Positions 4,198 through 35,595 of a DNA stretch of 64,000 nt are shown piece by piece. Origin of the DNA: Aminobacter aminovorans (lineage in GTDB: Bacteria; Pseudomonadota; Alphaproteobacteria; Rhizobiales; Rhizobiaceae); assembly GCF_900445235.1 (NCBI RefSeq), contig NZ_UFSM01000002.1:310001-374000 (forward strand). Reading direction: 5' to 3'. Numbering within the stretch: position 1 is the stretch's first letter; the number at the start of each line of letters is the position of its first letter. A program made the translations under genes and the position numbers. The notes under the pieces were generated by a model, which did not search any database, was not told where the DNA came from, and saw only the letters and a list, made by a program, of their open reading frames with translations.

Positions 4198-5061
4198 CTA
4201 GGCGCTTTGGATGGTTTCACGCGCAATCCGGTTGTGCAGCAGGCCGACACCTTCGATGTCGACTTCGACCAGGTCACCTTCCTTCATGAAGAGGGGCGGC
4301 ACGCGGGCGAAGCCGACCCCTCCGGGTGTGCCTGTCACAATCACGTCGCCGGGCGATAGTGGGGTGATGCTCGAGATGTAGGCGATCAACTGCGCTACAG
4401 AATGGATCATCTGGCTGGTACGCGCCGCTTGGACAGTCTCGCCGTTCAACCGGCAACTGATGGCCAGATCCTGTGGGTCGGGGATCTCGTCTGATGTGAC
4501 CAGGAACGGCCCGAAGGCACCGGTTGCGGGGAAGTTTTTGCCCGGCAGGAACTGTGAGGTGTGAGTCTGCCAGTCGCGAACCGAACCATCGTTGTAGCAT
4601 GAGTATCCGGCGACATGATCCAAAGCGGCATCCGCAGGGATGTTGCGGCCGCTTCTGCCGATGATGACGGCGAGTTCCGCCTCGAAGTCGAACTGGGTGG
4701 ACACCGATGGCATCAACATCGGCTCGCCATGCGCGCATTGGGAGTCGGCGAAGCGGGCAAACAAGGTCGGATGCTGTGTCGGCGTATGGCGTGTTTCGAC
4801 CATGTGGTCGTGATAGTTCAACCCTACACAGATGATCTTTCCAGGGTTGGGAATTGGCGCTTGCAGCTCAATGCCAGCCAGCGGAAGCTCGGCGCTGCGG
4901 TCGATCGCCTGCCTGCAGATGGTCACGAAGTCTTGCTCGGCGAGGAGATTGGCGAGCGTCGGAAAGCGGTCGCCAAGGACGCTGCTGATGTCGCGGATGC
5001 GGTCGTCCGCCACCACGCCATATCCGGCTCGGCCATTATGGAAATAGCTACAAAGTCGCAT
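4198..5061 (-). CDS. Fumarylacetoacetate hydrolase (FAH) family protein
   Basis: Cytoplasmic metal-dependent hydrolase or decarboxylase of 287 residues. Family features: KIICVGLNYHDH, the acidic metal site FDFEAELAVIIG, GYSCYNDGSVRDWQ, the substrate-loop-like FLPGKNFPATGAFGPFLV, and the C-terminal PLSPGDVIVTGTPGGVG. Members cleave or decarboxylate acylpyruvates, oxaloacetate or hydroxylated 2-oxo acids, so it probably handles a 2-oxo acid intermediate. ATG 5061 was chosen over an upstream ATG because GAGGAA lies 5 bases before it and the family starts with the MRLCSYFHNGRAGYG-type sequence. Second gene from the end of the 7815-1707 operon, 126 bases upstream of the CnbZ-like gene. Confidence 0.88.
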   Translation of the reverse strand: MRLCSYFHNGRAGYGVVADDRIRDISSVLGDRFPTLANLLAEQDFVTICRQAIDRSAELPLAGIELQAPIPNPGKIICVGLNYHDHMVETRHTPTQHPTLFARFADSQCAHGEPMLMPSVSTQFDFEAELAVIIGRSGRNIPADAALDHVAGYSCYNDGSVRDWQTHTSQFLPGKNFPATGAFGPFLVTSDEIPDPQDLAISCRLNGETVQAARTSQMIHSVAQLIAYISSITPLSPGDVIVTGTPGGVGFARVPPLFMKEGDLVEVDIEGVGLLHNRIARETIQSA

Positions 5062-5189
5062 CGTTCCTCGCTGCGATTGGATTGTGTTCGGCCCCCGGGA
5101 AACGGGGTATGTTTGCGGGCGGCGCGAAGCCGCCATGTTCTTTATTGGTGGTCTGCGAACCGGGCGACCGACGCCGCCCGATCCGCCTC

Positions 5190-6638
5190 TCAGCTGATGT
5201 CGAAGGTGATCGTCTTGACGTCGGTGACTTCGCGCAGCGTGTGCTTACCGCCAAGGCGGCCCAGCCCGCTGGCCTTGCCCGATGCTCCGCCAAACGGCAG
5301 GTGCAGCTCCCAGTAGCAACTCGGGCTGTTGATGTTGACGAGACCGGCACGCAATTTCTCGCCGAATGAAAAGGCGCGGCTCAGATCGCGGGTGAACACG
5401 CTTGCCGCAAGTCCGTGCGACGAAGCGTTGGCCGTATCGAGCAGGTCGGCGTCATCAGCACAAACCACCAGCGGCGCTACGGGTCCGAAGGTCTCGGATG
5501 TGTTGAGCAGGGCCTGGCGGTCGACGCGCCCCATGACCGTGGGGTGGTACAGCAGACCCGCCCCTTTCTTTCCACCGGTGAGGATGTCGGCCCCGCGGGA
5601 CAATCCGTCTGCCACATGTTGTTCGACCTTGGCTATTACCTGGGGGTTGTTCAGCGGCCCCATCGTCGTTTCAGCGAGAAGCGGATCGCCAAGGCGGATC
5701 TTCTCCGCAATGCCTGCGATGCGGGCAGCCAAAGCGTCGTGGTTCTTTTCGGTGACGAGAATTCGGCCGGTGGCGGCGCAGACCTGTCCGGCATTGAAGA
5801 AGCAGCCAAAGGCGGCGGCCTGTGCCGCACGATCCAGATCTGCATCATCGAGCACGACGACGGGTCCGTTGCCGCCGAGTTCCAGCAGCATCGGCTTGCC
5901 GGCACCACGCTTTGCAATGGCGCTACCGGTCTGTGGGCTGCCGGTGAAACCGATCCCATGCGTGCCGGGATTGGCGACGATCTCGTCGCCGACAACCGCG
6001 CCTGGGCCGAGGACAAGGTTTACCGCCCCGTCGGGAAGGCCAGCCTCCACAATGCATTCCATCAGCTTGACGGCACAAAGAGAGGTCGTTGGGGCGGGCA
6101 CCCACACCACCGCGTTGCCTGCGGCGAGGCAGGGCGCGAGATACTCGACGGGAATGTTGATCGGGAAATTCCAAGGCGTGACGATCGCGTAGACGCCACG
6201 CGCTTGGCGAAAGCTTATCGCCCGTTTGCCAGGTGTCTCGACCGGGATGAACTCGCCTTCGAGCCACTTGATCAGTTCGCCAGCTTCCCGGAAACCGGTG
6301 GCGGCCGCATCGACCTCGCCATAGGCCTCTGACGCCAGCGGCTTGCCTTGTTCGCGTGCGAGCGTGAGCGCCAGTTCGTCGCGGCGCTTGTCGATGATGT
6401 CGGCGACGCGGTTGCAGAGGCGTGACCGGTCCCATGCCGACATTTTCGACAACGCTTTATGACCGGCTTCAGCCGCCTTGATAGCATCCTGCGCGTCCGA
6501 GCGGTCACCCTCGGCAAGCACTGCCAGGAGCTTGTCGTCGTAAGGCGATCGCGCTTCGAAAGTCTTGCCGCTGTGTGAAGGCGTCCACTTGCCCGCTATG
6601 AAATGGTGCGCCAGAACTACGCTGTGTTCCATCGTCAT
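5190..6638 (-). CDS. Aldehyde dehydrogenase, NAD(P)-dependent
   Basis: Complete 482-residue aldehyde dehydrogenase. Catalytic Cys287 is in FNAGQVCAATGR, the general base Glu253 in LLELGGNG, and the oxyanion Asn157 in TPWNFPI. The adenine-ribose lysine normally found in a KPxE motif is replaced: the sequence reads VVWVPAPTT around residue 180. This suggests altered cofactor binding or a distinct subfamily. Expected to oxidise the aldehyde made by one of the two GMC enzymes of the regulon to a carboxylate. Start ATG 6638 is preceded by GCGGAAC. It lies 16 bases downstream of the amidohydrolase gene and is certainly cotranscribed with it. Confidence 0.92.
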   Translation of the reverse strand: MTMEHSVVLAHHFIAGKWTPSHSGKTFEARSPYDDKLLAVLAEGDRSDAQDAIKAAEAGHKALSKMSAWDRSRLCNRVADIIDKRRDELALTLAREQGKPLASEAYGEVDAAATGFREAGELIKWLEGEFIPVETPGKRAISFRQARGVYAIVTPWNFPINIPVEYLAPCLAAGNAVVWVPAPTTSLCAVKLMECIVEAGLPDGAVNLVLGPGAVVGDEIVANPGTHGIGFTGSPQTGSAIAKRGAGKPMLLELGGNGPVVVLDDADLDRAAQAAAFGCFFNAGQVCAATGRILVTEKNHDALAARIAGIAEKIRLGDPLLAETTMGPLNNPQVIAKVEQHVADGLSRGADILTGGKKGAGLLYHPTVMGRVDRQALLNTSETFGPVAPLVVCADDADLLDTANASSHGLAASVFTRDLSRAFSFGEKLRAGLVNINSPSCYWELHLPFGGASGKASGLGRLGGKHTLREVTDVKTITFDIS

Positions 6639-6654: not shown

Positions 6655-7815
6655 TTACTGGGATTGCATGGGGTGGCTGCCGCCCGCCGGGTCGATCTGG
6701 CGACCCTTGACGATGAGGCGATCGCACACCAGTCTTGTCGAAACGTCGAGGCCTTCGCCGGCCGCGTCCCTGAAGGTCCAGGGTTCGTCCCGCCATTTCA
6801 GCACGGCAACATTGGCTTCGTCGCCGACAGCGATACGGCCGAGGTCGGGACGGCCGATCATTTTCGCCGGGTTGGCGCTGCCTGCGGCCAGAGCCGTCGT
6901 CTGGTCGACGCCGAGCGCAATCATCTTGTTGATCGTGGTCAGAAGGTCGTAGGCAGGACCGTTGACCGAAAGGGAATGGATGTCCGAACTGATCAGGTCG
7001 GGCACGAAGCCTTCAGCCAGCATCTCGCGGCAGACGCGGAAGGAAAATCCACCCATGCCATGGCCGATGTCGAAGTGTACGCCGCTCTCGCGAGCCCGCC
7101 ATACCGCATCGCGGACGCGGCCATTTTCGGTGGCGGCATTCGGATCCGGGCGGCAGCAATGGGTGATGATGTCACCGGGGCGTAGCCGCTGCAGGACCTC
7201 CTCGATGGAAGGAGGGTCGAGGTCGACGTGGCACATGACCGGCAGGTTGAGCCGCTCGGCCACCTTGAGCGCAACTTCGAGAGCTGCGCCACCGTTTTCG
7301 CCGGAAGCTTTGCGGCCGGCCCGCACCTTGATGCCGACGATTTGCTCTGGATAGGCCTGCGCGGCTTCTATGCAGCTTTCGGCGTCGACGAGACGCATGT
7401 CGCAGCATTCGCCCACCATGACACGCTTCGAGAAGCCGAAGATTCCCGGAAACGAGATGTTGAGAAAGGCAAAGGCGTGGAAAGGCAGTGGCTCGAAGAT
7501 GAACGTTTTCAGGCCTTCGAAATTTCCTGCCCCGGCCGAACCGGCGTCGACGAAGGTTCCTGTCGCGGACCGATGCGCAACCAGTTCGGGCCGGACGCCC
7601 AGAGAGGTGGCGCCCCAGTAGATATGGGTGTGGATGTCGGTCAGCGCTGGCAAAACGATTGCTTCTCGCGCGTCCACGACGATATCGTCCGGACGCGATA
7701 AGCCGGTGCCGATAGCGACAATGCGACAGTCGGCGATGGCGATGTCGGTAACGGTTCCGGGTGCGCCGCCGAAGGCCAGGACATGGCCGCCTTGTAGAAC
7801 TGTTCGTCGTGCCAT
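6655..7815 (-). CDS. Amidohydrolase/deacetylase family metallohydrolase
   Basis: TIM-barrel metal hydrolase of 386 residues. Metal-site signatures are DIHTHIYWG (HxH, about residue 60), a possible carboxylated lysine in VGIKVRAGRK, CHVDLD, THCCRPD and SSDIHS. It belongs to the uncharacterised amidohydrolase/deacetylase group related to dihydroorotases and D-aminoacylases, which hydrolyse amide or N-acyl bonds. First gene of the leftward catabolic operon; its promoter region is shared with the divergent transporter operon and contains the TetR-type operator. May release an amine or acyl group from an imported amide. Confidence 0.85.
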   Translation of the reverse strand: MARRTVLQGGHVLAFGGAPGTVTDIAIADCRIVAIGTGLSRPDDIVVDAREAIVLPALTDIHTHIYWGATSLGVRPELVAHRSATGTFVDAGSAGAGNFEGLKTFIFEPLPFHAFAFLNISFPGIFGFSKRVMVGECCDMRLVDAESCIEAAQAYPEQIVGIKVRAGRKASGENGGAALEVALKVAERLNLPVMCHVDLDPPSIEEVLQRLRPGDIITHCCRPDPNAATENGRVRDAVWRARESGVHFDIGHGMGGFSFRVCREMLAEGFVPDLISSDIHSLSVNGPAYDLLTTINKMIALGVDQTTALAAGSANPAKMIGRPDLGRIAVGDEANVAVLKWRDEPWTFRDAAGEGLDVSTRLVCDRLIVKGRQIDPAGGSHPMQSQ

Positions 7816-7914: not shown

Positions 7915-7938
7915 ACTGACCAGTCAGTCAATATTGAC
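7915..7938. promoter_or_regulatory. TetR-type operator in the divergent promoter region
   Basis: Two overlapping palindromes: ACTGAC-CA-GTCAGT (7915-7928) and the perfect 12-base GTCAATATTGAC (7927-7938). The first 19 bases recur at 16388-16406 with one mismatch. A rightward -35-like TTGACA (7934-7939) overlaps the second palindrome, so a bound repressor would block transcription toward the transporter. The leftward -10 is weak. The repressor is inferred to be the TetR protein at 12187-12879. Confidence 0.8.
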
Positions 7939-8006
7939 AATGACCCCGTTTTCATTCCAGATGGGTGCGTCATCCGACAACTTACAGCACCATTTGGGAG
8001 GCTCTG

Positions 8007-9251
8007 ATGGGTAAGAAGTTTTGGGCCGCGCTGATCGTCAGCACGGCCACTGCAACTGCGCTGCTGCATTCCGGCAGTGCCTGGGCAAAGGACACCGTTC
8101 GGGTCCGCGTCGCAGAATACAGCACCAAGACCGGTCCGTTCTTTCAGGATCTGGCGGCAAAGTTCAACGCGGCGAATCCCGATATCGAGGTCACGGTCGA
8201 GCACCTGCCCTGGCCGGAGATGCAGCAGCAGCTGGTGAGCGACATTTCTGCCGGTACCGCCCCTGATGTCTCGCACATGGCGACGCGCTGGATGGCGGGA
8301 TTTGCCAAGGACGGGGCGCTCGCCCCGATCGAAGGCCTGATGTCACCCGGCTTCGCCGATAGCTTTGTGCCAACCTATCTCGATCTGCAGAAGCAGGGTG
8401 ACCATACCTGGGGGCTGCCGATTGCGGCATCCGCACGTGGGCTGTTCTACAACAAGAAGTTGCTCGAGCAGGCGGGGATCGCAAACCCGCCGGCAACCTG
8501 GGACGAGGCATTCGAGGCAGCCAAGAAGATCGATGCGCTGGGCGACGGGGTCTATGGCATCGGCGTCCAGGGCAGGGACCTCGATACCGAAGGTTATTGG
8601 TTCTACAGCCTCTGGACGCATGGCGGCAGCATTCTGGGGCCGGACGGCAAGAGCGGGTTCGCTTCGCCTGAGGCCGTGACAGCGACCAACAATTATCTGC
8701 GCATGATCAAGGCGAATGTCACCCAGCCGGGCGTTACCGGTTCCAGCCGCGAGGACCTGCAGAACCTCTTCGCCGCCGGAAAGATGGGCATGGTCCTGTC
8801 GGGTCCGTGGTTCAATGCGCAGCTCGCCGAACAGGGCAAGGATGTCGAGTACGGCATCAGCCGAATTCCGGTCGCAACGACCGAGGCGACCTATGGCGTC
8901 ACCGATACCATCGCCGTCCTGGAATCCTCGAAGGTGAAACCACAGGCGATGAAGTTCCTGGAGTTCATCTTCAGCAAGGAAAACAGGCTTGAATTCGGCA
9001 AGCTCGAAGGCTTCGTGCCTGTCCTGAAGGCGGAATCGACCGAGCCCTTCTTCACCGAGAACCCGAAGATGTCGGTGTTCCTCGAAATGGGACCGACGGC
9101 AAAGTTCGCACCGCTGTTCCCGCGTTGGGAAGAGATGGCGGACGGCCTCAAGTCCGAGCTGTCCAGGATTTACGCCGGCGAGGTTTCGGCCGAGGAAGGC
9201 CTGAAGCAGGCGGCTGCAAAGATGGATGCGATCCTGGCCGAAGAAGAATAA
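8007..9251 (+). CDS. ABC transporter extracellular solute-binding protein (family 1)
   Basis: Periplasmic ligand-binding protein of 414 residues with a Sec signal peptide (a KK pair, a hydrophobic stretch, cleavage after GSAWA). The mature part is a typical sugar-type (MalE/UgpB-like) binding protein: AGTAPDVSHMATRWM, GLPIAASARGLFYNKKLLEQAG, GKMGMVLSGPWF. ATG 8007 is preferred over an upstream start because GGGAGG lies 5 bases before it. First gene of a binding protein-permease-permease-ATPase operon. Ligand unknown; the neighbouring alcohol, aldehyde and amide enzymes suggest a polar hydroxylated compound rather than a simple hexose. Confidence 0.93.
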   Translation: MGKKFWAALIVSTATATALLHSGSAWAKDTVRVRVAEYSTKTGPFFQDLAAKFNAANPDIEVTVEHLPWPEMQQQLVSDISAGTAPDVSHMATRWMAGFAKDGALAPIEGLMSPGFADSFVPTYLDLQKQGDHTWGLPIAASARGLFYNKKLLEQAGIANPPATWDEAFEAAKKIDALGDGVYGIGVQGRDLDTEGYWFYSLWTHGGSILGPDGKSGFASPEAVTATNNYLRMIKANVTQPGVTGSSREDLQNLFAAGKMGMVLSGPWFNAQLAEQGKDVEYGISRIPVATTEATYGVTDTIAVLESSKVKPQAMKFLEFIFSKENRLEFGKLEGFVPVLKAESTEPFFTENPKMSVFLEMGPTAKFAPLFPRWEEMADGLKSELSRIYAGEVSAEEGLKQAAAKMDAILAEEE

Positions 9252-9290
9252 GTCCTGAAATCGTCGCCCGCAGGCGATCCATTCTACTCA

Positions 9291-9313
9291 GGTGGCGTGA
9301 CGACCACGCCACC
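9291..9313 (+). promoter_or_regulatory. Intercistronic stem-loop after the binding-protein gene
   Basis: Perfect 9-base stem GGTGGCGTG/CACGCCACC with a 5-base loop, 40 bases after the binding-protein stop and 25 bases before the permease start. There is no T-run, so it is more likely an mRNA-stabilising or partial-attenuation hairpin of the kind seen after highly expressed binding-protein genes than a full terminator. Confidence 0.6.
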
Positions 9314-9338
9314 GCTCTTCCTCAAAGGTAAAGCGCGT

Positions 9339-10283
9339 ATGCCGGGAATTGAGATGACCGCCCCCAGAAGCGCCGCAAGCGCGGGCCGGTGGAGCAAGAC
9401 GGGGCTACCGGGTCCGGCCTTCGCGCTGATCCTGATTGCACCCTGTCTGCTGCTTTCGGTCGCCGTGATCGGCTATCCGATATTCGACGTGATCCGTATG
9501 TCGCTCTTTGACGTAAGTCGTACTGGCGTTGTCCGCGATTTCACTGGTCTGGCCAATTTTGCCAAGGCCTTCGCCGACCCTGTTTTTCTGCAGGCTGCAC
9601 GCCAGACCCTTGTCTGGACCGTCGCCGTCGTAGGCGGAACACTGCTGGTCTCTGTGCCGATTGCCTTGATCCTCAATGAGGATTTCTATGGCCGGACAAT
9701 CGCACGGACAATCGTGCTGCTGCCTTGGGCCATTTCGCTGGCGATGACGGCGGTTGTATGGCGCTATGTCGTCAACGGAGATTTCGGCACTCTCAACATG
9801 ACACTGGCCGCCCTCGGCCTGCCATTCGAAAACTATCCATGGTTGGCCGACGCCAGGACGGCGTTCCTCCTTGAGATACTGGTCGGAATTTTGGTGTCGG
9901 TGCCGTTCACCGTGACGATCCTCCTCGGCGGGCTGACGTCCATCCCGGAGTCCCTCTACGAGGCGTCTGCCATCGACGGCGCGTCGTCGACCAAGAGTTT
10001 CTACTTCATTACGATGCCGCTGCTGTGGCCGTTCATGCAGATCGCGCTCGTCCTCAACGTCATCTATGTTTTCAATTCATTCCCGATCATCTGGATCATG
10101 ACCAATGGCGGCCCCGCCAACCGGACCGACATTCTGATCACCTATGTCTACAAACAGGCCTTCGCTTTCGGAAAGCTTGGCAACGCAGCGGCCGGTTCCG
10201 TGGTCATGTTCGCGATGCTGTTGGTCTTCGCCGTTGTGTACCTGTTTCTGACAAAAGCGCAGGGGGCTCGCAACGATGTCTAA
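9339..10283 (+). CDS. Sugar-type ABC transporter permease 1 (MalF/UgpA-like)
   Basis: Inner-membrane permease of about 314 residues with six predicted helices beginning near GPAFALILIAPCLLLSV. The cytoplasmic EAA loop that contacts the ATPase is visible (EASAIDGASSTKSFYFITMP). An upstream GTG at 9297 lies inside the stem-loop and is disfavoured; ATG 9339 follows AAAGGT, and ATG 9354 is also possible. Its 3' end overlaps the next permease by 8 bases. Partner of the 10276 permease and the 11114 ATPase. Confidence 0.92.
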   Translation: MPGIEMTAPRSAASAGRWSKTGLPGPAFALILIAPCLLLSVAVIGYPIFDVIRMSLFDVSRTGVVRDFTGLANFAKAFADPVFLQAARQTLVWTVAVVGGTLLVSVPIALILNEDFYGRTIARTIVLLPWAISLAMTAVVWRYVVNGDFGTLNMTLAALGLPFENYPWLADARTAFLLEILVGILVSVPFTVTILLGGLTSIPESLYEASAIDGASSTKSFYFITMPLLWPFMQIALVLNVIYVFNSFPIIWIMTNGGPANRTDILITYVYKQAFAFGKLGNAAAGSVVMFAMLLVFAVVYLFLTKAQGARNDV

Positions 10284-11103
10284 AGCAAAGAAGAGTCTCG
10301 TTTGCTGGGCGCTGCTTTCACCCTTCCTCCTGGTCGTACTCTTTCCCTACGCGACGATGCTGTCGACGTCGCTGAAGCAGAAGGACGAGATATTCACCTT
10401 CCATCGGACCTGGCTGCCGCGCGAGTTCTATCTGGGCAATTTTGCCGAGCTCATTTTCGAGAAGGGATTTGGACGGGCATTGGCAAACTCACTTGCCATC
10501 AGCATCGGGGCCACCGTTTTGTCCCTCGCGGTGGCCATACCAGCCGCCTATGCGCTCACCCGGATGCGGGTTCCAGCCAAGGGCGCACTGACCAATTACC
10601 TGCTCATCACCCAGATGATCTCGCCGATCGTTCTGATCATTGGTCTGTTCCGGATGTTTGCCTATTTCGGCCTGGTCAACAGCCTGCTGTCGGTGATCAT
10701 CGCGCACAGCGCCTTCTTCATGGCATTTGCCGTCTGGATGCTGCAGAGCTACTTCGCGACCATTCCGAAGGATCTCGAAGAGGCCGCGTGGATGGACGGC
10801 GCCGGCCGGTTCAGTGCCTTCATCCGCGTCTTCCTGCCGTTGTGCCTTCCCGGGATTGTCGTCACGGCAATCTTCACCTTCGTCAATTCCTGGAACGAGT
10901 ATGCGATGTCGTTGACGCTGTTGCGCCAGGTCAGCCAGCAGACCGCGCCGGTTCAGATCGCGTTCCTGACCGGCACTCTCTACCAAATTGAATGGCATCT
11001 CATCATGGCCGCGACGTTGCTTGCGTCGGTGCCTGTCGCAATCGTCTTTGCAACCATCCAGCGCTACCTCATTGGGGGAATGGCGCTTGGTGGGGTCAAG
11101 TAG
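10276..11103 (+). CDS. Sugar-type ABC transporter permease 2 (MalG/UgpE-like)
   Basis: Inner-membrane permease of 275 residues with about six helices and the EAA motif EEAAWMDGAGRFSAFIRVFLP. The start overlaps the preceding permease, consistent with coupled translation and heterodimer formation. The ATPase gene follows 10 bases downstream. Length is normal for MalG-type permeases. Confidence 0.92.
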   Translation: MSKAKKSLVCWALLSPFLLVVLFPYATMLSTSLKQKDEIFTFHRTWLPREFYLGNFAELIFEKGFGRALANSLAISIGATVLSLAVAIPAAYALTRMRVPAKGALTNYLLITQMISPIVLIIGLFRMFAYFGLVNSLLSVIIAHSAFFMAFAVWMLQSYFATIPKDLEEAAWMDGAGRFSAFIRVFLPLCLPGIVVTAIFTFVNSWNEYAMSLTLLRQVSQQTAPVQIAFLTGTLYQIEWHLIMAATLLASVPVAIVFATIQRYLIGGMALGGVK

Positions 11104-11113
11104 GAGGAGCTAA

Positions 11114-12187
11114 GTGGCTTCCATCAATCTCACCAACATCCGCAAGCAATATGGCTCGGTCACGATCATCGACGATGTCCATATCTCAATCGAGGATCGA
11201 GAATTCGTCGTCCTGGTAGGTCCGTCAGGGTGCGGCAAGTCCACGCTCCTCCGGATGATCGCCGGGTTGGAATCGATCTCGGGAGGGACCATCGCCATTG
11301 ACGGCGAGGTGGTGAACGACGTTGGCCCGCAGCGGCGCGATTTGGCGATGGTCTTTCAGACCTATGCGCTCTATCCGCATATGACGACCGCGCAGAACAT
11401 CGGCTTTCCCCTGAAGCTGCGGGGCGCCAGCCAGGATGATATTGGCCGTTCCGTCGCAGGTGTGGCAAACACACTGCATCTCGACGCGCTTCTTGACCGC
11501 CAACCACGCGCCCTTTCCGGCGGGCAGCGTCAACGCGTCGCGATGGGCAGGGCGATGGTACGGGAGCCGCGGGCCTTCCTTTTCGATGAGCCGCTGAGCA
11601 ATCTCGACGCGAAACTCAGGCATCACATGCGCATCGAGCTGCGCCAATTGCACAAGTCGCTGGGCGCAACGTCCATCTATGTCACGCACGACCAGATCGA
11701 GGCGATGACCATGGCCGACCGGATCGTTGTCATGAACCGCGGCAAGGTCGAGCAGGTGGGTACACCACTCGAGCTTTTCGACAAGCCGGCAAATGTCTTC
11801 GTTGCCGGCTTCCTCGGCTCGCCGACGATCAACCTGGGCAGCGCAACGCTTTCGGCCGGAGGTGGATCAGCCAAGCTCGAATTCCATGCCGGCTCCGGTC
11901 CGATCGAGCTTGCCAACATTCCGCCGTCAGCTCACAAGGAGGTTGTGGCCGGGGTGCGCCCGCAACATCTGGAAGTTGTCTCTCCAGAGGGCGCTGGGCT
12001 CACGGGGACGGTTGATCTGGTCGAGCATACGGGGTGTGAAACCAACGTCATTCTTTCAGTTGGACCCGAGAAGTGGACGGTACAATCGCGGATCCGCCAG
12101 CATCTCGTGCAAGGAGAGCGTGTCGGGCTCGTCTTCGACCCGACCAACCTCCACCTCTTCGCAGCCGATACCAAGGAGCGGATATAA
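11114..12187 (+). CDS. ABC transporter ATPase (MalK/UgpC-like)
   Basis: Energy-coupling ATPase of 357 residues: Walker A GPSGCGKST, Q-loop VFQTYALYPHM, signature LSGGQRQRVAMGRA, Walker B FLFDEPLSNLD, and switch His in YVTHDQIEAMTMADR. A C-terminal OB-type regulatory domain (about residues 240-357) is present, as in MalK/UgpC. The start is GTG 11114 with a strong AGGAGG 8 bases upstream. The stop shares one base with the TetR start (TAATG), so the regulator is translated with the transporter. Confidence 0.95.
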   Translation: MASINLTNIRKQYGSVTIIDDVHISIEDREFVVLVGPSGCGKSTLLRMIAGLESISGGTIAIDGEVVNDVGPQRRDLAMVFQTYALYPHMTTAQNIGFPLKLRGASQDDIGRSVAGVANTLHLDALLDRQPRALSGGQRQRVAMGRAMVREPRAFLFDEPLSNLDAKLRHHMRIELRQLHKSLGATSIYVTHDQIEAMTMADRIVVMNRGKVEQVGTPLELFDKPANVFVAGFLGSPTINLGSATLSAGGGSAKLEFHAGSGPIELANIPPSAHKEVVAGVRPQHLEVVSPEGAGLTGTVDLVEHTGCETNVILSVGPEKWTVQSRIRQHLVQGERVGLVFDPTNLHLFAADTKERI

Positions 12188-12879
12188 TGGCAGCAATGCG
12201 TACTCACGGCTCCACCAGCGAAGCCAAGCCTGCGGAGGCAAGAAAGCGCGACCCCGAGCGCACCAGGCTTGTGATCATCGAGGCAGCTCGCGAGGAATTT
12301 GCCGAAAACGGCTACGATGGCGCACGCACGGATCGGATCGCCACCCGCACGGGCATGAGCAAGGGCGTTCTCTACCACTACTTCAGTTCGAAGGATGATC
12401 TATTCGTAGCCGTCCTGGAAGACATCTACCAGGAGCTTCGCTCGCAGAACGAAGCCCTGGTTCTGGACGAATTCGAGCCGGTAGACGGCATCCGCGAGCT
12501 CATCGCGCACACATACCAGTACTTCGTCGATCATCCTGAGTTCATCGTGCTGGTGAACTCCGAAAATCTGATGAAGGCCCAGCACCTTGAGCGATCGGAG
12601 AGCATCCGCAACATGTTTACACCCTTGTCGCGGCGCCTGAGCGAGTTGATCAGCCGCGGCCAGGAGCAGGGCATTTTTCGGTCAAACGTCGATGTCGTCG
12701 AACTATACATCTCGATCGTCGGCCTGGGCTATTTCTTCCTGGCCAATCGCTGGACCCTCGGCGTGGTCTTCAACCGTGATCTGTTGGGACAGGGTGCGGA
12801 AAAGGTGCGCCTGCAGCATATGACCGAAATGGTTCTCGACTATCTGCGCAACGTCAAATCCTTGGACGGAAAAGAATGA
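12187..12879 (+). CDS. TetR/AcrR family transcriptional regulator
   Basis: Repressor of 230 residues. The N-terminal helix-turn-helix is classical: REEFAENGYDGARTDRIATR followed by TGMSKGVLYHYFSSKDDLF. The C-terminal ligand domain (about 90-230) resembles the TetR_C group of RutR/CymR-like regulators. ATG 12187 overlaps the ATPase stop and has AAGGAG upstream; a longer in-frame extension lies inside the ATPase gene and was rejected. It sits inside the operon it likely regulates. Two matching palindromic operators in the window (7915 and 16388) are its most likely targets, giving feedback control of uptake and catabolism. Inducer probably the transported substrate or a catabolite. Confidence 0.92.
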   Translation: MAAMRTHGSTSEAKPAEARKRDPERTRLVIIEAAREEFAENGYDGARTDRIATRTGMSKGVLYHYFSSKDDLFVAVLEDIYQELRSQNEALVLDEFEPVDGIRELIAHTYQYFVDHPEFIVLVNSENLMKAQHLERSESIRNMFTPLSRRLSELISRGQEQGIFRSNVDVVELYISIVGLGYFFLANRWTLGVVFNRDLLGQGAEKVRLQHMTEMVLDYLRNVKSLDGKE

Positions 12880-13973
12880 TCGCTACGCCGCCGTTACTGC
12901 CGGATGCCGGGCCGCTGCGCTGGCGCGACGTTGTCGAAACGCCCGCGGTGCTGATCGACCTCGATGTCGTCGAACGGAACATCAGGCGCTGCCAGGAGCA
13001 GTGTGACAAGCTCGGCGTAACTGTCCGACCCCACATCAAAACGCACAAATTGCCGCTGCTCGCGCACGCCCAACTGGCGGCAGGGGCGGTTGGCGTCACG
13101 GCGCAGAAGATCGGCGAAGCCGAGGTCATGGCCGATGCGGGAATCGACGACATCCTCATTTCCTACAACATTGTCGGCCATCGCAAGCTTGAGCGGCTGA
13201 GGCATCTCGCCGAACGGTGCCGCCTTTCTGTGGTTGCCGATAGCGCCGAAGTCGTTGCCGGCCTTGCGCGTACATTCGCGGACGGAAAAAGCGAACTCGG
13301 CGTCCTGGTAGAATGCGATACCGGCATGCAGCGGTGTGGCGTCCTGGCCCCGGAGGCCGCGCTCGAACTGGCCCGGCAGATCTCCAGCTCCCCTGGCTTG
13401 CGGTTCGCCGGCGTGATGACGTACCCGGCTCCCGGCCAGGGCAATGCGGCCGGGGAATGGCTCGAGCGTGTTGCTGGCATCATTCGTTCTGCGGGGATCG
13501 AAGCCGAAATTGTGTCGAGCGGCGGAACTCCCGACCTATACGCAATGAAGCATCACACCAGCCTTACTGAGTACAGGCCGGGCAGCTACATCTACAATGA
13601 TCGCTCGCTTGTCACTGCCGGCGCTTGCGGACCGGAAGATTGCGCGCTGACGGTGCTGACGACCGTCGTCAGTTCGCCCGCGCGAGGCCGCGCGATCGTC
13701 GATGCCGGTACGAAGGTGCTGACGTCCGATCTCTTCGGGATGAGCGGGTATGGCATGGTACTGGACCGGCCCGACAGCTCTGTCACGTCGCTGAACGAAG
13801 AGCACGGACGGATCGAATATGGCAGCGAGCCGATGCCTTCGGTGGGCGAGTTCCTGCGCATCATCCCCAACCACGCCTGTGTCGTCAGCAACATGGTAGA
13901 TTGCGTACATCTCGTCAGGGGAGAGTATTACGTCCGGGCCGAGCCGGTGGCAGCGCGCGGTCGGATCACCTGA
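12876..13973 (+). CDS. DSD1-family fold-III PLP enzyme (D-serine dehydratase/D-threonine aldolase-like)
   Basis: PLP enzyme of 365 residues with an alanine-racemase-type barrel and a D-serine-dehydratase-like C-terminal domain. The PLP lysine is in RPHIKTHK. The zinc pair of eukaryotic-type D-serine dehydratases is visible as His and Cys in NHACVVSNM. Members act on D-beta-hydroxy amino acids (D-serine, D-threo-3-hydroxyaspartate, D-threonine) by dehydration or retro-aldol cleavage. ATG overlaps the TetR stop (ATGA). Dehydration would make a reactive enamine, a natural substrate for the RidA-like protein at 3322. The exact substrate cannot be assigned. Confidence 0.85.
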   Translation: MIATPPLLPDAGPLRWRDVVETPAVLIDLDVVERNIRRCQEQCDKLGVTVRPHIKTHKLPLLAHAQLAAGAVGVTAQKIGEAEVMADAGIDDILISYNIVGHRKLERLRHLAERCRLSVVADSAEVVAGLARTFADGKSELGVLVECDTGMQRCGVLAPEAALELARQISSSPGLRFAGVMTYPAPGQGNAAGEWLERVAGIIRSAGIEAEIVSSGGTPDLYAMKHHTSLTEYRPGSYIYNDRSLVTAGACGPEDCALTVLTTVVSSPARGRAIVDAGTKVLTSDLFGMSGYGMVLDRPDSSVTSLNEEHGRIEYGSEPMPSVGEFLRIIPNHACVVSNMVDCVHLVRGEYYVRAEPVAARGRIT

Positions 13974-14052
13974 GTTCGCAGAACGGAACCGGTCTGCGTC
14001 CCTGCTGAATGGGCAACCTTAGAGAGACGTGGCCAACGTTCTATGGTTGAGA

Positions 14053-14084
14053 CGGAGCGAGCGTCGCTGAGACTGCTCGCTCCG
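14053..14084. terminator. Hairpin between convergent operons
   Basis: Inverted repeat CGGAGCGAGC/GCTCGCTCCG (10-base perfect stem, 12-base loop) between the stop of the PLP enzyme gene and the stop of the leftward GMC gene. The position suits a bidirectional terminator; no clear T-run flanks it. Confidence 0.55.
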
Positions 14085-14092
14085 CCAGGCAA

Positions 14093-15718
14093 TCATGCCA
14101 TTGCCGGAACATTGGTGGCCTTGGACAAGGCGACGAAGTTGTCGCGTATGTAGGTCGCGGCCCGCAGCGCCAGAGCGGATATCGTCGGCGTCGGATTCAC
14201 GGTTCCGCCGGTCGCAAGCACGCTCCCGTCGATGATGAACAGGTTGGGCACCTCCCAACTCTGGTTCCAGCCGTTCACCACGGAGGTTTCCGGATCCTTG
14301 CCCATCCGGCATGTTCCAAGCATGTGCCAGGCGGGCGTCCGGTATACTCCATTCGCATCGCGGTAATCCTGCAGGCGATACTCGACGGCATCACATGCCT
14401 GCGCGAGATCCTTCAACCGATCAAGCATGTAGTTCATCATGCGCTTGTCGTTTTCGCCGGGCGTGTAATGCAGCTTGGCTCCGGGCATTCCGTCCGAATC
14501 CGTCCGAGTATCCAGCGTGACCCGATTTTCGGGGTTGGGAAGATCGTCGCCTATGGCAAAGACGCCGATGGAATGGCCGAAATGATTTTCAAACCATCGA
14601 TGATGCCCTGACCCCCATGGCGCGCGGGCAGACGAAAGCCATCCGGCCGCCAACTCCCCGGCAGATGGGGTCGAAGAGATGCAGTTGAGGTTGAAACCGT
14701 TCACGAAGCCGCGCGACAGGTCGGTTTCGGCGAATTCGCGACTGATCAGCGAGGCAGCATAGCCGATGTGGCCGTCGACCGGGCGGTCGACCCACATTTC
14801 GGACGCCACGAGCGTGTGGTGGAGCAGGTTGCGGCCGACCTGGTCGTTACCGTTGGCGAGGTTGTCCGAACCCAGCAGGAGACGCGGCGTGCCAACGCCG
14901 TTGGCTGCCACGACGACAATCCGCGCCTTCTGGAACAGAAGCTGGTCGGAGTTGCGATCTATGTAGTGGGCGCCGGTAGCGCGACCGTCCGCCCCCTTTT
15001 CGATCCTGAGGACGCGGGCGTGGGTTCGCAGTTCACACCCCGCACGCAAAGCCTTGGGCCAGATAGATGTCGCGTATTCGTTCATCGAGCCACGAGGGCA
15101 GCCGCTGCATACGCCGCAATTGTTGCAGGCAGGGCGACCATCGTAGTCTTCCGAGATGACAGATGCCTCGACGGGCCACCAATGCCAATCAAGCCTGTCA
15201 AAGCCGGACGAAAGCCGCCGGGCGACGTCGGAAACAGGCAGCGGGCGGGTTGGGCAACGCTCTCGCGGCGGCATTGCAGGGTCGCCCGCCAACCCAGAGA
15301 CGCCTACGACCTGATCCGCGAGTTCATAGAAGGGAGAGATGTCCTCATAGGTGATAGGCCAGTCGGGCTGAAGGCCGTGCTCGGTGCCCTTCCTGAAGTC
15401 TGACGGACGGTAGCGTGGCCATAGGCCGCCATAAACGTTGGTCGACCCGCCCACGGCGTTCCACATGAGTACCTGCGATGAGTTGGACTCGACTGGAAAA
15501 TCATCGGCGTGATCGCGTTTGTTGACGTCGGGGTTCCATCGACCGCGTCTCTGCCAAGACCAGTCCGCATGTCCGTGCGGCCGATCACCAGCGTTTACCC
15601 ACGATCCCTGCTCCAGGCAGACCACGTCGAGTCCAGCTTTCGCGAAGACGAGCGCGGCGAGCGACCCCGTCGCGCCGGCACCGACGATCAGGACGTCGCA
15701 GATACGCTGCCGGCTCAT
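14093..15718 (-). CDS. GMC-family FAD oxidoreductase paired with a subunit-3-like protein
   Basis: FAD oxidoreductase of about 541 residues of the gluconate 2-dehydrogenase/sorbose dehydrogenase large-subunit type. It has DVLIVGAGATGSLAALVFAKAG at the N-terminus, a Cys-rich insert (CNNCGVCSGCPRGSMNEY), and a C-terminus with AWHMLGTCRMG and GGTVNPTPTISALALR. ATG 15718 overlaps the upstream stop (ATGA), so it is coupled to the small-subunit gene. No Tat signal is seen on either subunit and no cytochrome c subunit gene follows, unlike classical membrane gluconate dehydrogenases. Likely oxidises a hydroxyl group of the regulon's substrate. Confidence 0.88.
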   Translation of the reverse strand: MSRQRICDVLIVGAGATGSLAALVFAKAGLDVVCLEQGSWVNAGDRPHGHADWSWQRRGRWNPDVNKRDHADDFPVESNSSQVLMWNAVGGSTNVYGGLWPRYRPSDFRKGTEHGLQPDWPITYEDISPFYELADQVVGVSGLAGDPAMPPRERCPTRPLPVSDVARRLSSGFDRLDWHWWPVEASVISEDYDGRPACNNCGVCSGCPRGSMNEYATSIWPKALRAGCELRTHARVLRIEKGADGRATGAHYIDRNSDQLLFQKARIVVVAANGVGTPRLLLGSDNLANGNDQVGRNLLHHTLVASEMWVDRPVDGHIGYAASLISREFAETDLSRGFVNGFNLNCISSTPSAGELAAGWLSSARAPWGSGHHRWFENHFGHSIGVFAIGDDLPNPENRVTLDTRTDSDGMPGAKLHYTPGENDKRMMNYMLDRLKDLAQACDAVEYRLQDYRDANGVYRTPAWHMLGTCRMGKDPETSVVNGWNQSWEVPNLFIIDGSVLATGGTVNPTPTISALALRAATYIRDNFVALSKATNVPAMA

Positions 15719-16239
15719 CGCTTCATCCCCCAACGTTCGGTCGTTGCTGAGCCAAGGTCGATCGACGACAGGTCCAGGGGCACGACGTCCTCGGTTCGCA
15801 GATAGCGTCCGCGGCCGTGGGTCGGCGTATCACGTTCAAGGTCAAAGGCCGGCATGGGGTATCCGTCTGCATGGGGGAATGTGGAGTATGGTCGACCACC
15901 GGCCCTGATCGCTTCCACTACTCCCGGCATCTCGTAGTAGGCGAGCAGCGCTGCGGTGTAGATCTTGTCGAATAGAACAGGGTTTGCCTCTTCAAACTGT
16001 CGAACAGCCGAGATGCGGCGTTCCGAAGCGGCGTTCAGCAGGCCTTCTGAAGCAGGTTCGAGCGCTGTGGCCAATAATTCGATGGCGCGGGAGGGCCGAT
16101 CGCCAGACAGGCGCAACAACACCAGACCATGGACGCCAACCTCAGAGGCCGAGGGCCAGCAACCATCGCCTGGAATAAGCTCATCCACTAAGCGCTTAAG
16201 TACGATCTCGTTTGCAATGGGCAAGTTACTTGGCTGCAT
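15715..16239 (-). CDS. Gluconate 2-dehydrogenase subunit 3 family protein
   Basis: Small-subunit-like protein of about 174 residues. Recognisable features are the start LKRLVDELIPGDGCWPSASEVGV, FDKIYTAALLAYYEMPGV and the GGRPYSTFPHADGYPMPAFD region that is typical of subunit 3. ATG 16239 follows AAGGGC; a longer 20-residue extension is possible but lacks a signal peptide too. Normally this subunit carries a Tat signal and chaperones export of the FAD subunit, so its absence here suggests a cytoplasmic complex. First gene of the leftward pair, about 140 bases downstream of its promoter/operator. Confidence 0.8.
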   Translation of the reverse strand: MQPSNLPIANEIVLKRLVDELIPGDGCWPSASEVGVHGLVLLRLSGDRPSRAIELLATALEPASEGLLNAASERRISAVRQFEEANPVLFDKIYTAALLAYYEMPGVVEAIRAGGRPYSTFPHADGYPMPAFDLERDTPTHGRGRYLRTEDVVPLDLSSIDLGSATTERWGMKR

Positions 16240-16376
16240 TCTAAAGCCCTTGGTTGCTGTGGCCGTGCAATCGTTGCGTGGCGGGGTCGGTGCCAAGAAG
16301 GGAAGTGCGAGCCATCGGGTCTTCGTTTCTCCATTCTCGCGGACCTATCGACCCCTTCGATTTGCGTGTTGCTCTC

Positions 16377-16406
16377 AGATTACGCAAACTGACTAGTCAG
16401 TCAATA
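16377..16406 (-). promoter_or_regulatory. Promoter with TetR-type operator for the GMC pair
   Basis: Perfect 14-base palindrome ACTGACTAGTCAGT at 16388-16401. With the next five bases it matches the 7915 operator at 18 of 19 positions. On the minus strand TTGACT (16399-16404) and TAATCT (16377-16382) are 16 bases apart, a plausible -35/-10 pair, with the palindrome filling the spacer. Repressor occlusion is the simplest reading. The rest of 16240-16639 holds no supportable gene. Confidence 0.8.
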
Positions 16407-16639: not shown

Positions 16640-17827
16640 CTAAGGCCCCGTCATCCAGACGGCCTGCCTCCGGACGACGGGCGCGAATCCAGCGACGAGC
16701 ATTACCGCGATCATCGCACCGGTGACCACAAACAATGCGCCGGACAGGGAGATGACCGTTAGCGCCGCGCTGGCGAAGATCACGCCGATGGCGTTCGCGG
16801 TACGCAGCAGCGCAAACACTGCGGGCCGCTTTCGCGGAGGCGCTAACCGATCAAGCGCAAGCGCGTAGTGGGTTCCGAGCGGCGCAAGCACGAAGCCTAT
16901 GAGGATAGCTCCGATCACGGTCGTCACGAGAGACGACCCCAACGCCGCTAGAGCAGCTCCCAGCGTCATGACCCCCAACTGGACGACCACTATGCGCCTG
17001 CTCGCCAGCCGGTTCCGCACACTCACCCAGATCCCTCCTGCGACTGAAGCCAAGCATAGCGGCACCGTGAACAGAATGGCAAAGGCCGGCTCGTAACCGA
17101 ACTTCAGAGCTAACGCGACAGCGCCGATCTCAATTGCCGCGACAGTTGAGCCGCCAGCGGCCGCGCAGGCGAGCCAGAGCAAGATGGAAGGGCTCAGGAT
17201 AGAGCCCTCCGTATGCGGGATGTCCGTGACATGGACCAGGTTTGCCTGAGGGATCAGGAGGATGGGTATCGCTCCCATTGCGGTGATCGCCAGCAAGGCG
17301 AAGACGGGCGATATCGAACCGAGACCGGACGCCGCGACAGGCCCCAGGACGAAAGTCAATTCGTTGAGGGTGGATGCTATCCCGAGGGCACGCGGCAAGC
17401 GCGATGCGGGCGTGAAATGATTGAGCAGCGACCTCAGGTAGCCGAATGCTGCGCCATTCACCGATCCGGCCAAGGCCGCGAGGCAGACGAGCCAGAGGAA
17501 GGGGGCCTCGTAGTAGGCGCACAAAGCGATGCCAGCCAAGGCAATCGTCCGAAATCCCACCAAGAGCCTGAGGAACGTGGAGGCCGGCAGGTTCCTGCCA
17601 AGACGCGTGATCGGAATTGCCCCTGCCACCTGTGCGATCGTCATTGCGAGGATTATGCCAGCTCCCCCTCTCGCGTCGCCCACCAAGCTCAGAGCAAGAA
17701 GCGAAAAGGCCACCGGTCCCGCAGCCTGCGGCACCGACAAGGTTGCAGACGAGGCAAACCAGCGGATGAGTGGCCAGCGGCCCGATGGGCTGCTCGCCGG
17801 ATTATCAGGATTGTGATCGCTGGTCAT
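16640..17827 (-). CDS. MFS transporter
   Basis: Polytopic membrane protein of 395 residues with about 12 helices, starting PASSPSGRWPLIRWFASSATL. Gly- and Ala-rich helices and basic loops between helices 2-3 (ITRLGRNLPASTFLR) and 8-9 (VRNRLASRR) fit a drug/metabolite MFS exporter. ATG 17827 has no strong ribosome site, but the extra 66 residues of the longer frame are Arg/Cys-rich and unlike a transporter. Substrate unknown. It ends 240 bases from the 16388 operator but is transcribed from its own upstream region. Confidence 0.85.
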   Translation of the reverse strand: MTSDHNPDNPASSPSGRWPLIRWFASSATLSVPQAAGPVAFSLLALSLVGDARGGAGIILAMTIAQVAGAIPITRLGRNLPASTFLRLLVGFRTIALAGIALCAYYEAPFLWLVCLAALAGSVNGAAFGYLRSLLNHFTPASRLPRALGIASTLNELTFVLGPVAASGLGSISPVFALLAITAMGAIPILLIPQANLVHVTDIPHTEGSILSPSILLWLACAAAGGSTVAAIEIGAVALALKFGYEPAFAILFTVPLCLASVAGGIWVSVRNRLASRRIVVVQLGVMTLGAALAALGSSLVTTVIGAILIGFVLAPLGTHYALALDRLAPPRKRPAVFALLRTANAIGVIFASAALTVISLSGALFVVTGAMIAVMLVAGFAPVVRRQAVWMTGP

Positions 17828-18317
17828 GCTGTCGTGGTTCGGCCGAAGACAATTGCGCGCACTCCCTCGACCAGGATTTCTCGAACCTCGCAGCCATACG
17901 CGACTGGGATTCGTGGCGGATGTCGGGTAGCGCGCCTCTAACAGGATGAAGCTGCAAGAGATAACAACACCGGAACACGCCTCGACCCTTGGTGGGCCGG
18001 GCCGTTCCCGGACATTCTTTCCCAATACGGGAGAGGACGTTACCTCGCGATGGGGACCTTATCCACCAAGCTCGCCGAGTCAACTGTGGAGGATGTGGTG
18101 ATGCAAACCCAGGAGCGAGGCCCGACTGAGTTGGAGTCTCTGTGAGCGACTGTCAGACCAAGCGACAGTCAAACATTACCTGAAATTGCGAGAGCCGAGT
18201 TCCATGTCGGATGACGACAGCTGAACCGCATCCACCGACGCCAACTCAACAACCGCATTGAACAGCATCATCGGCATGGCACGCGATGTCCCTTCATCCT
18301 ATCGGAACCGCATAAGT
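17828..18317. other. Intergenic gap with one inverted repeat
   Basis: About 490 bases without a recognisable gene between the MFS start and the stop of the ProC-like gene. It contains GACTGTC-N9-GACAGTC at 18148-18170, a perfect 7-base inverted repeat that could be an operator for the MFS gene or a weak hairpin. No other structure seen. Confidence 0.45.
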
Positions 18318-19100
18318 CTAACCTTGGATCCGCGCAAAAACCCGATCGAGGGCCAGCACCAGGGAGCGGCTGCCACCGTCTTCGTTGAAGTCATGTAGGA
18401 CCTGCTCGTTGAGGCCGCCCTTGGTGGCGAATTCGTGGCTCATTTCGAGGAATTCAACATCCTTGCCGGCCAATAGCGCCGTTTCGGCGAGGCCGGAGAA
18501 CAGAGGAGCGAGATAGGCGCGACCCTTTTCTTCCGGGAGGCCGTTCTCCGCGAGCCAGGCGGCCGTAGTTTGCATGATGCCGAAATAGGTAGCCATCAGG
18601 GCGCTTGCCGCAGCGAGGAGATCGTACTCCGTCTTTGTCTCGCATTCGACTGCTTTGCCCAGCACGTCGAAGATGGCAGCCGTATCGGTATCAGGCGGGT
18701 AGACGGCTGTGACGCCCTTGCGCCTTCCGACAAAAGGCAGTGGAATCGCTTGGGAGAGACGCACATCCGCGCCGATCCAGTCGAGAAGCGCGCTTCGGCT
18801 CGTTGCGGCAACGACGCTGATCACGCTCTGCCCGTCGCGGAACCGAAGCGGTCGGATGACCTCCTCCGCGATCTGCGGGCGGATAGCCAGCACCACTGTA
18901 TCGCATTGATCTACGATCGCCTGGTTGTCGCCTGAGACGATTACAGTTGGGAAATCCGCGGACAATTTGGCCGAGATATCTGCGCTGCGTTGCGACACCA
19001 TCACGTAGGACACAGCGGCCGGCTCGGTGAGCAGGCCGCGTACCATAGCGTCAGTAATGGCGCCGGTTCCGACAAATCCAATCTTTCGAGACAGGGCCAT
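18318..19100 (-). CDS. Pyrroline-5-carboxylate reductase-like protein
   Basis: NAD(P)-binding reductase of about 260 residues: Rossmann motif IGFVGTGAITDAMVRGLL, the VVLAIRPQ and VVAATSRS segments of the ProC family, and a C-terminal dimerisation domain with EFATKGGLNEQVL in place of the usual GGTTEAAL. Likely reduces a cyclic or linear imine, but the changed substrate-loop sequence means true proline synthesis is not assured. ATG 19100 or 19106 are both plausible; the longer frame is rejected. Stands alone, 137 bases from the next gene. Confidence 0.75.
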   Translation of the reverse strand: MALSRKIGFVGTGAITDAMVRGLLTEPAAVSYVMVSQRSADISAKLSADFPTVIVSGDNQAIVDQCDTVVLAIRPQIAEEVIRPLRFRDGQSVISVVAATSRSALLDWIGADVRLSQAIPLPFVGRRKGVTAVYPPDTDTAAIFDVLGKAVECETKTEYDLLAAASALMATYFGIMQTTAAWLAENGLPEEKGRAYLAPLFSGLAETALLAGKDVEFLEMSHEFATKGGLNEQVLHDFNEDGGSRSLVLALDRVFARIQG

Positions 19101-19237
19101 GATCATTCCGTTGTCGCGAGGGGCAATATGACCGATTCGACGACAGCGTCCGCCGGATTTACGGCTATTACGGAGTCCCAAAGGCGCCAACCGTCCCTTT
19201 GGTTGACGATCCTTATTCCTGCAACGAGATCAGTCGC

Positions 19238-19558
19238 TTAACCGCCGGTGCATGCGGATGGCACTGCTCTGCCAATGCCCCACGTTAGCTTTCCCTGCAC
19301 TATGGTGATCGTCTGCTGACCATTCGAATAGGTTGTTCCGTCTGGTCCCATGGCGGGCAATTCGATCTCGGTCGCTCCGTTGATGGATACCGAGGCGTGG
19401 TCTCCGAGCAGGCGCACTGCCAGGCGCGTGCCGTCCTCGCACGTGTATTCACTGACGGGATGGGGGTTGCCTGCACCGATCGCCGCGCCTGAGGCCGGAT
19501 GCTCGAAGCCTGCAAGCGTCAGTACGCTGATCGCAGCGATCGACAGTTCTCTCCACAT
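19238..19558 (-). CDS. MliC-type C-type lysozyme inhibitor family protein
   Basis: Small secreted protein of 106 residues. A Sec signal peptide is followed by a single MliC-like domain: EYTCEDGTRLAVRLL, VSINGATEIELPAM, GTTYSNGQQTITIVQGKLTWGIG, and a final Cys that can pair with the first. MliC/PliC proteins bind the active site of animal-type lysozyme in the periplasm. No lipobox, so probably soluble. GGAGAA lies 6 bases before the ATG. Assigned by pattern, without alignment. Confidence 0.72.
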   Translation of the reverse strand: MWRELSIAAISVLTLAGFEHPASGAAIGAGNPHPVSEYTCEDGTRLAVRLLGDHASVSINGATEIELPAMGPDGTTYSNGQQTITIVQGKLTWGIGRAVPSACTGG

Positions 19559-19615
19559 GATAGTTCTCCAAGCTGGCGCGCTGGTGCGGGCGAGGTGGCG
19601 GCGCGCGCAGATGTT

Positions 19616-35520: not shown

Positions 35521-35595
35521 CGTCACCGTCTGTGCTTGTCCTCCAGCGTGCGACGAGAGCCGCGCGCTGGCCCTTGGGTCGATGAGGAACCCGAA

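Follow-up and report, generated by a model that had tools for sequence, protein, structure and literature searches.

The window analysed here is a stretch of 64,000 nucleotides from Aminobacter aminovorans (assembly GCF_900445235.1, contig NZ_UFSM01000002.1, positions 310,001–374,000 or C2:310001-374000; features are numbered from its first letter). It carries genes of an ATP-binding cassette (ABC) transporter, genes of catabolic enzymes, a gene of a TetR-family regulator and two near-identical palindromic sites. These sites are the candidate operators of the TetR regulator, and the genes around them form a putative regulon of three units.

The 19-mer ACTGACCAGTCAGTCAATA occupies positions 7915–7933 and the 19-mer ACTGACTAGTCAGTCAATA positions 16388–16406. 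They differ in a single base over 19, as claimed in a first-pass annotation of the window. When up to three mismatches are allowed, these two are the only matches in the window, and 100 shuffles give none. The common core of both sites is a 14-base palindrome, ACTGAC-YR-GTCAGT, which is the predicted operator proper. Operator 1 (ACTGAC-CA-GTCAGT, 7915–7928) is predicted from sequence and conservation. Its position between divergent operons, also claimed earlier, is borne out by the distances to both gene starts: 100 bp to the amidohydrolase on the minus strand and 79 bp to the solute-binding protein (SBP) on the plus strand. Operator 2 (ACTGAC-TA-GTCAGT, 16388–16401) precedes the gene pair of a GMC oxidoreductase (GMC2), 149 bp from the start of the small subunit, and is ranked first by a weight matrix built from relatives. 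In a scan for further copies, an idea of the first-pass annotation, the whole genome was searched (5,886,880 bases in 5 contigs). The exact palindrome ACTGACYRGTCAGT occurs only at the two window sites, where about 0.06 copies per genome are expected from base composition. A single place elsewhere has one mismatch (C1:4649199, ACTCACTAGTCAGT).

The regulator gene (12187–12879, plus strand) lies between the two sites inside the transporter operon, with the coordinates given previously, and overlaps the stop codon of the ATPase gene. It encodes a protein of 230 amino acids that has orthologs in ten relatives. Two profiles match far above their cut-offs, PF00440 with 66.9 bits (cut-off 24) and PF17938 with 125.7 bits (cut-off 26.2). 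Scores for the 21 NCBIfam families of named TetR equivalogs that were listed (RutR, BetI, ScbR and others) are all below the respective cut-offs.

The ten relatives, defined by an orthologous TetR at 54% identity or more, all carry the site in the corresponding divergent promoter, seven as an exact copy and three with one mismatch. The exact palindrome is also present at the place of operator 2 in Aminobacter sp. HY435 (G143). No such site is found at the 11 loci of the same scan with a TetR at 45% or less, nor at the five loci examined, from 27 found, that have an SBP at 38–45% and no TetR ortholog. Among ten genomes of the genus, exact ACTGACYRGTCAGT is present in four, and the same four have the TetR ortholog (83% or more). 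A weight matrix trained on the first sites of the ten relatives, with the window left out, gives 27.5 bits for the site at 16388 and 24.8 bits for that at 7915; the next-best place scores 6.7 bits. In the order, 15 of 397 genomes contain the 19-mer, exact or with one mismatch, and all four genomes with an orthologous SBP are among these 15. The probability of this overlap by chance would be 1.3e-6 for independent genomes, which these are not. At a distance of 26 bp from the main site, Mesorhizobium, Hoeflea and genome G495 have a weak second copy, with three, two and three mismatches, respectively.

The palindrome of operator 1 is followed by the invariant sequence CAATATTGAC (7929–7938), which on the basis of column conservation may be read as two back-to-back -35 hexamers. 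This flank is present in all 11 divergent promoters compared, those of the window and the ten relatives. In an alignment of eight divergent promoters, the block 7915–7938 is invariant in 22 of 24 columns, as opposed to 12 of 240 columns outside it. At sites elsewhere the palindrome is kept, but the flank varies. The trailing CAATA common to both 19-mers belongs to CAATATTGAC in all 11 divergent promoters; it is probably part of a promoter and not of the operator, and the 19-base match is a probable mixture of operator and promoter element.

Gene order varies among the relatives, and operators are present or absent accordingly: a gene block separated from the others carries a site of its own, and one that is joined to a controlled operon lacks it. 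GMC2 and its small subunit form a separate unit both in the window and in Aminobacter sp. HY435, each time with a site of their own. In A. anthyllidis, GMC2 is fused behind a second GMC oxidoreductase (GMC1) in the amidohydrolase operon, and the 19 kb examined contain the divergent site and no second one. In the G608 genome, the gene of a pyridoxal phosphate (PLP) enzyme has GMC2 fused behind it, while the genes of the FAH-family hydrolase, the CnbZ-family protein and GMC1 are located apart and have their own exact site. A site with one mismatch precedes the binding-protein gene of a tripartite ATP-independent periplasmic (TRAP) transporter in Mesorhizobium. Two exact extra sites in a metagenome bin assigned to Ruegeria precede genes that resemble the same TRAP system by place and size. 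Operators that accompany moved gene blocks are a clear example, on a small scale, of how a regulon evolves.

We assign a probability of roughly 0.8 to the reading that TetR is a local repressor acting at 7915–7928 and 16388–16401 and thereby controls three units. The protein would bind ACTGAC-YR-GTCAGT at both sites, most plausibly as a repressor rather than an activator. Binding at site 1 would silence the promoters of both divergent units. The leftward unit would consist of amidohydrolase, aldehyde dehydrogenase (ALDH), FAH hydrolase, CnbZ and GMC1, and the rightward unit of the ABC transporter, TetR and the PLP enzyme. As its gene is part of the rightward unit, TetR would also control its own expression. 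Binding at site 2 would silence the GMC2 pair. A compound of the pathway would presumably release TetR from the DNA, which would make the units inducible, as the first-pass annotation has it. The regulon proposed in the first-pass annotation is thus supported by conservation, by co-occurrence with the TetR ortholog, by the held-out prediction and by operators that move with their genes. The regulon itself is very probably real and represents a well-known type. The gene combination, which the first-pass annotation did not recognize as a described one, was not found in the literature searched either: a search for it gave no match beyond a fungal study. Searches with the operator letters and with Aminobacter plus TetR revealed no description, as judged from titles and listings. 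For the cluster in Aminobacter, Shinella, Mesorhizobium, Hoeflea and the Ruegeria-assigned bin, this provides a regulator, an operator and a target list that can be tested.

The following observations speak against this assignment. Outside the cluster, 10 of 11 copies in the 397 genomes adjoin another TetR gene, and the palindrome can therefore be regarded as a general mark of TetR control. As a rough control, a TetR gene is found beside one of nine weaker sites in the genus genomes, and this one is the C1-type site. A palindrome type common to several TetR proteins does not by itself name the regulator, and cross-talk is possible. The tie between the site and the cluster TetR is consequently one of co-occurrence. 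Genome G680 contains one copy with perfect arms and the centre AA, but neither a TetR ortholog nor an adjoining TetR gene. Among 15 regions with TetR paralogs (39–49%), one (G064) also has sites with one mismatch. In G495, the site is retained together with TetR, the SBP, the permeases, ALDH and a Rid protein, and no gene for amidohydrolase, ATPase or PLP enzyme was found in the region examined. Finally, a strict scan for the sigma-70 consensus detects no promoter at either window site. For this reason, the earlier placement of the second site in a -35/-10 spacer is not established.

Since the palindrome type is shared, the main binder of the sites could instead be a different TetR of the cell, such as that beside C1:4649199, or two TetR proteins could have the operator type in common. 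The frequent neighbourhood of other TetR genes is consistent with it, and so is the copy with one mismatch beside another TetR gene in the source genome itself. This alternative is nevertheless improbable. In the genus, exact copies and the cluster TetR occur in the same four of ten genomes, Aminobacter sp. HY435 has both cluster sites and lacks the C1-type site, and the TetR gene is located within the controlled operon in the relatives. It is hardly credible that the block represents a promoter element or is recognized by a DNA-binding protein other than TetR, and this reading was set aside. The adjacent CAATATTGAC does resemble two -35 hexamers, but the palindrome recurs without this flank at other sites and adjoins TetR genes elsewhere.

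The C1 site (4649199–4649212) is located about a dozen bases before the gene of a TetR protein of 191 amino acids, which diverges from an alpha/beta hydrolase gene. The ACTCACTAGTCAGT variant is also present in G261 and G679, in G261 beside a TetR gene. Most likely, the C1 site belongs to its own neighbouring TetR, which is probably a separate, autoregulated one. At the G064 locus (L048), the TetR paralog is 45% identical and palindromes with one mismatch are located at 9851 and 14628. The former lies behind the paralog gene and before the gene of an NMT1-type binding protein, and the latter before a hydantoinase A gene. This locus is perhaps a parallel regulon.

The families of the gene products were assigned by Pfam and NCBIfam profile scores for 30 open reading frames of the window. 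On the plus strand, the SBP (8007–9251, PF01547) is of the sugar type, with sugar-binding proteins as the best solved relatives. It is followed by two ABC permeases (9297–10283 and 10276–11103, both PF00528) and an ATPase of the UgpC type (11114–12187; NF008653, 469.7 bits with a cut-off of 432). The oxidizing enzymes are encoded on the minus strand. These are ALDH (5190–6638, PF00171), the choline dehydrogenase-like GMC1 (1707–3344, PF00732 and PF05199) and GMC2 (14093–15733, PF05199 and PF00732), which resembles the large subunits of fructose and glucose dehydrogenases according to its solved relatives. The small subunit paired with GMC2 (15715–16239, minus strand) has no direct Pfam match; PF13618 (gluconate 2-dehydrogenase subunit 3) is matched by 4 of 22 homologs.

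The amidohydrolase (6655–7815, minus strand; PF01979) has 2ogj as its best solved relative, and we take it to belong to the Atu3266-like group. What are presumably its metal-site motifs are kept in all nine distinct relatives aligned. The FAH-family hydrolase (4198–5136, minus strand; PF01557) shares with eight of eight relatives an H-x-x-E motif. With the NCBIfam model of 2,4-didehydro-3-deoxy-L-rhamnonate hydrolase it scores 193.8 bits, below the cut-off of 500.

The PLP enzyme (12876–13973, plus strand; PF01168 and PF14031) belongs to the group of D-threonine aldolases and D-serine dehydratases and is a predicted D-3-hydroxy amino acid dehydratase. A His-x-Cys motif is present in the window protein and in all 11 distinct relatives, two of which are enzymes at 58–59% from clusters without the cluster TetR. 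According to an excerpt of PMC4401734, the metal ligands are His and Asp in D-threonine aldolase (His347 and Asp349 in AxDTA) and His and Cys in D-serine dehydratase, and the aldolase base His193 is absent from D-serine dehydratase. By our own count on the alignment, the window enzyme has Gly at the place of His193. A role as an aldolase was considered and set aside on account of the metal ligand, with His-x-Cys instead of His-x-Asp. The designation as a PLP enzyme in the first-pass annotation stands and is refined here by the metal motif to a protein that looks like a dehydratase. The score with the NCBIfam model of the 3-hydroxy-D-aspartate aldolase BhcC is 196.1 bits (cut-off 690), and a literature search for D-glucosaminate dehydratase gave no match.

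The protein encoded at 3322–4071 (minus strand), formerly described as RidA-like, is instead a member of the CnbZ family (NF049982, 380.8 bits with a cut-off of 220) and a predicted enamine deaminase. The three relatives tested are also above this cut-off. It matches no Pfam family, and its 26 relatives yield one weak match to RidA/YjgF (E 0.14). The comparison of CnbZ and Rid profiles gives a probability of 0.6%, so that no sequence relation is detectable. CnbZ is present in six of the ten relatives (L051-L054, L099, L100), and a Rid-family protein is found in exactly the other four, namely Mesorhizobium, the Ruegeria bin, Hoeflea and G495 (L055, L056, L057, L101). Two of these Rid assignments are based on Pfam, and the other two proteins are 73–83% identical to that of Mesorhizobium. 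A dehydratase of this kind makes an enamine, the type of substrate used by Rid proteins, and a neighbouring CnbZ or Rid therefore fits. The CnbZ family is large (7612 of 8000 scored candidates match), and a name shared by so many relatives does not necessarily reveal the substrate. That Rid can stand in the place of CnbZ hints at a general role for a family named after one nitroaromatic enzyme.

Tentatively, the substrate may be an N-acylated amino-polyol or amino-sugar acid that undergoes oxidation, deacylation, dehydration and deamination. The ABC system would import an N-acylated amino-polyol or amino sugar, and the GMC oxidoreductases and ALDH would convert the alcohol to the acid. The amidohydrolase would take off the acyl group. 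The PLP enzyme would dehydrate the D-3-hydroxy-2-amino acid to an enamine, CnbZ (the Rid protein in other species) would hydrolyse the enamine, and the FAH enzyme would cleave the resulting dioxo acid. The five loci examined that have an SBP at 38–45% give no more than hints of the substrate: two encode a PLP enzyme at 58–59% and one an amidohydrolase at 45%. The combination of a related sugar-type ABC system with PLP enzymes at 58–59% and RpiR regulators, present at two loci, favours a sugar-like amino compound. More speculative is the view that these genes constitute an undescribed pathway for such a compound, in which oxidation and deacylation come first, a D-specific PLP dehydratase then acts with an enamine deaminase (CnbZ or the unrelated Rid), FAH cleavage comes last and one TetR has operators that come and go as blocks split and fuse. 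If it holds, the CnbZ family, named for nitroaromatics, gains a general role as a substitute for Rid.

Some observations do not agree with this chemistry. The FAH hydrolase and the amidohydrolase score below the cut-offs of named families. In Mesorhizobium, the gene after GMC1 encodes a muconate cycloisomerase, and an HpaD-like dioxygenase encoded in the neighbourhood of the Hoeflea cluster scores 320 bits, close to its cut-off of 321.4. These two enzymes keep an aromatic substrate under consideration, in which case the same regulon could handle a 2-aminomuconate-type ring-cleavage product by way of ALDH, CnbZ as 2-aminomuconate deaminase and then FAH. In favour of this route are the name of CnbZ, which refers to 2-amino-5-chloromuconate, and a score well in excess of the cut-off, though the size of the CnbZ family limits what the name can tell. 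This route is unlikely and was set aside. No ring-cleaving dioxygenase is found among the 30 open reading frames of the window scanned, in Hoeflea an IclR gene of the opposite strand stands between the dioxygenase and the operon, and no role would be left for the sugar-type transporter, GMC2 or the PLP enzyme. Equally set aside, and very unlikely, is a chloramphenicol-type substrate, an aromatic D-threo amino-diol, the side chain of which would be oxidized by GMC1 and ALDH before deacylation by the amidohydrolase and aldolase cleavage by the PLP enzyme. The best solved relative of GMC1 is indeed a chloramphenicol-inactivating oxidoreductase (367 bits), but the choline dehydrogenase 9lq0 is nearly as good (353 bits). 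Likewise, the PLP enzyme has its highest scores with D-threonine aldolases but does not have the Asp ligand of an aldolase, and the transporter is of the sugar type.

In Hoeflea poritis (L034:364-3263), genes for the HpaD-like dioxygenase, a FAH hydrolase and a divergent IclR regulator are located directly beside the cluster. In the window, the region beside the regulon (16640–20818) has no operator and encodes a major facilitator superfamily transporter, a pyrroline-5-carboxylate reductase-like protein and an AstE/AspA-type deacylase. Further genes encode a protein of 1031 amino acids with a domain of the complex I/Mrp-antiporter type in two stretches (24196–27291) and efflux proteins of the resistance-nodulation-division type, HlyD-type and AcrB-type (35536–39788).

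RutR is described in an excerpt of PMC5343134 as a TetR-family regulator of pyrimidine catabolism. The proposed system resembles such local catabolic repressors in its combination of a TetR protein with a palindromic operator in front of genes for catabolism and transport, and RutR is among the named families nearest to the window TetR by score. However, the window protein reaches 60.8 bits with a RutR cut-off of 368, and the targets differ. The operator of RutR also differs from the palindrome described here.

For the enzymes, likeness to known systems is partial as well. GMC2 resembles the large subunits of the flavin adenine dinucleotide-dependent fructose and glucose dehydrogenase complexes and is paired with a small subunit, some homologs of which are of the gluconate 2-dehydrogenase subunit 3 type, but the two-gene unit has no gene for a cytochrome subunit and no export signal is apparent by eye in the small subunit. 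The CnbZ-family protein matches the family of the 2-amino-5-chloromuconate deaminase above cut-off, whereas no nitroaromatic genes are seen beside it and Rid replaces it in four relatives. The PLP enzyme shares the fold family and the His-x-Cys metal motif with D-serine and D-threo-3-hydroxyaspartate dehydratases, although it scores higher to D-threonine aldolases. The non-phosphorylating route of L-rhamnose degradation uses a 2,4-diketo-3-deoxy-L-rhamnonate hydrolase, and its hydrolase model is nearest to the FAH enzyme of the window; a sugar-type ABC transporter and dehydrogenases are further common features. In contrast to this route, the amidohydrolase, the PLP enzyme and CnbZ or Rid point to an amino compound.

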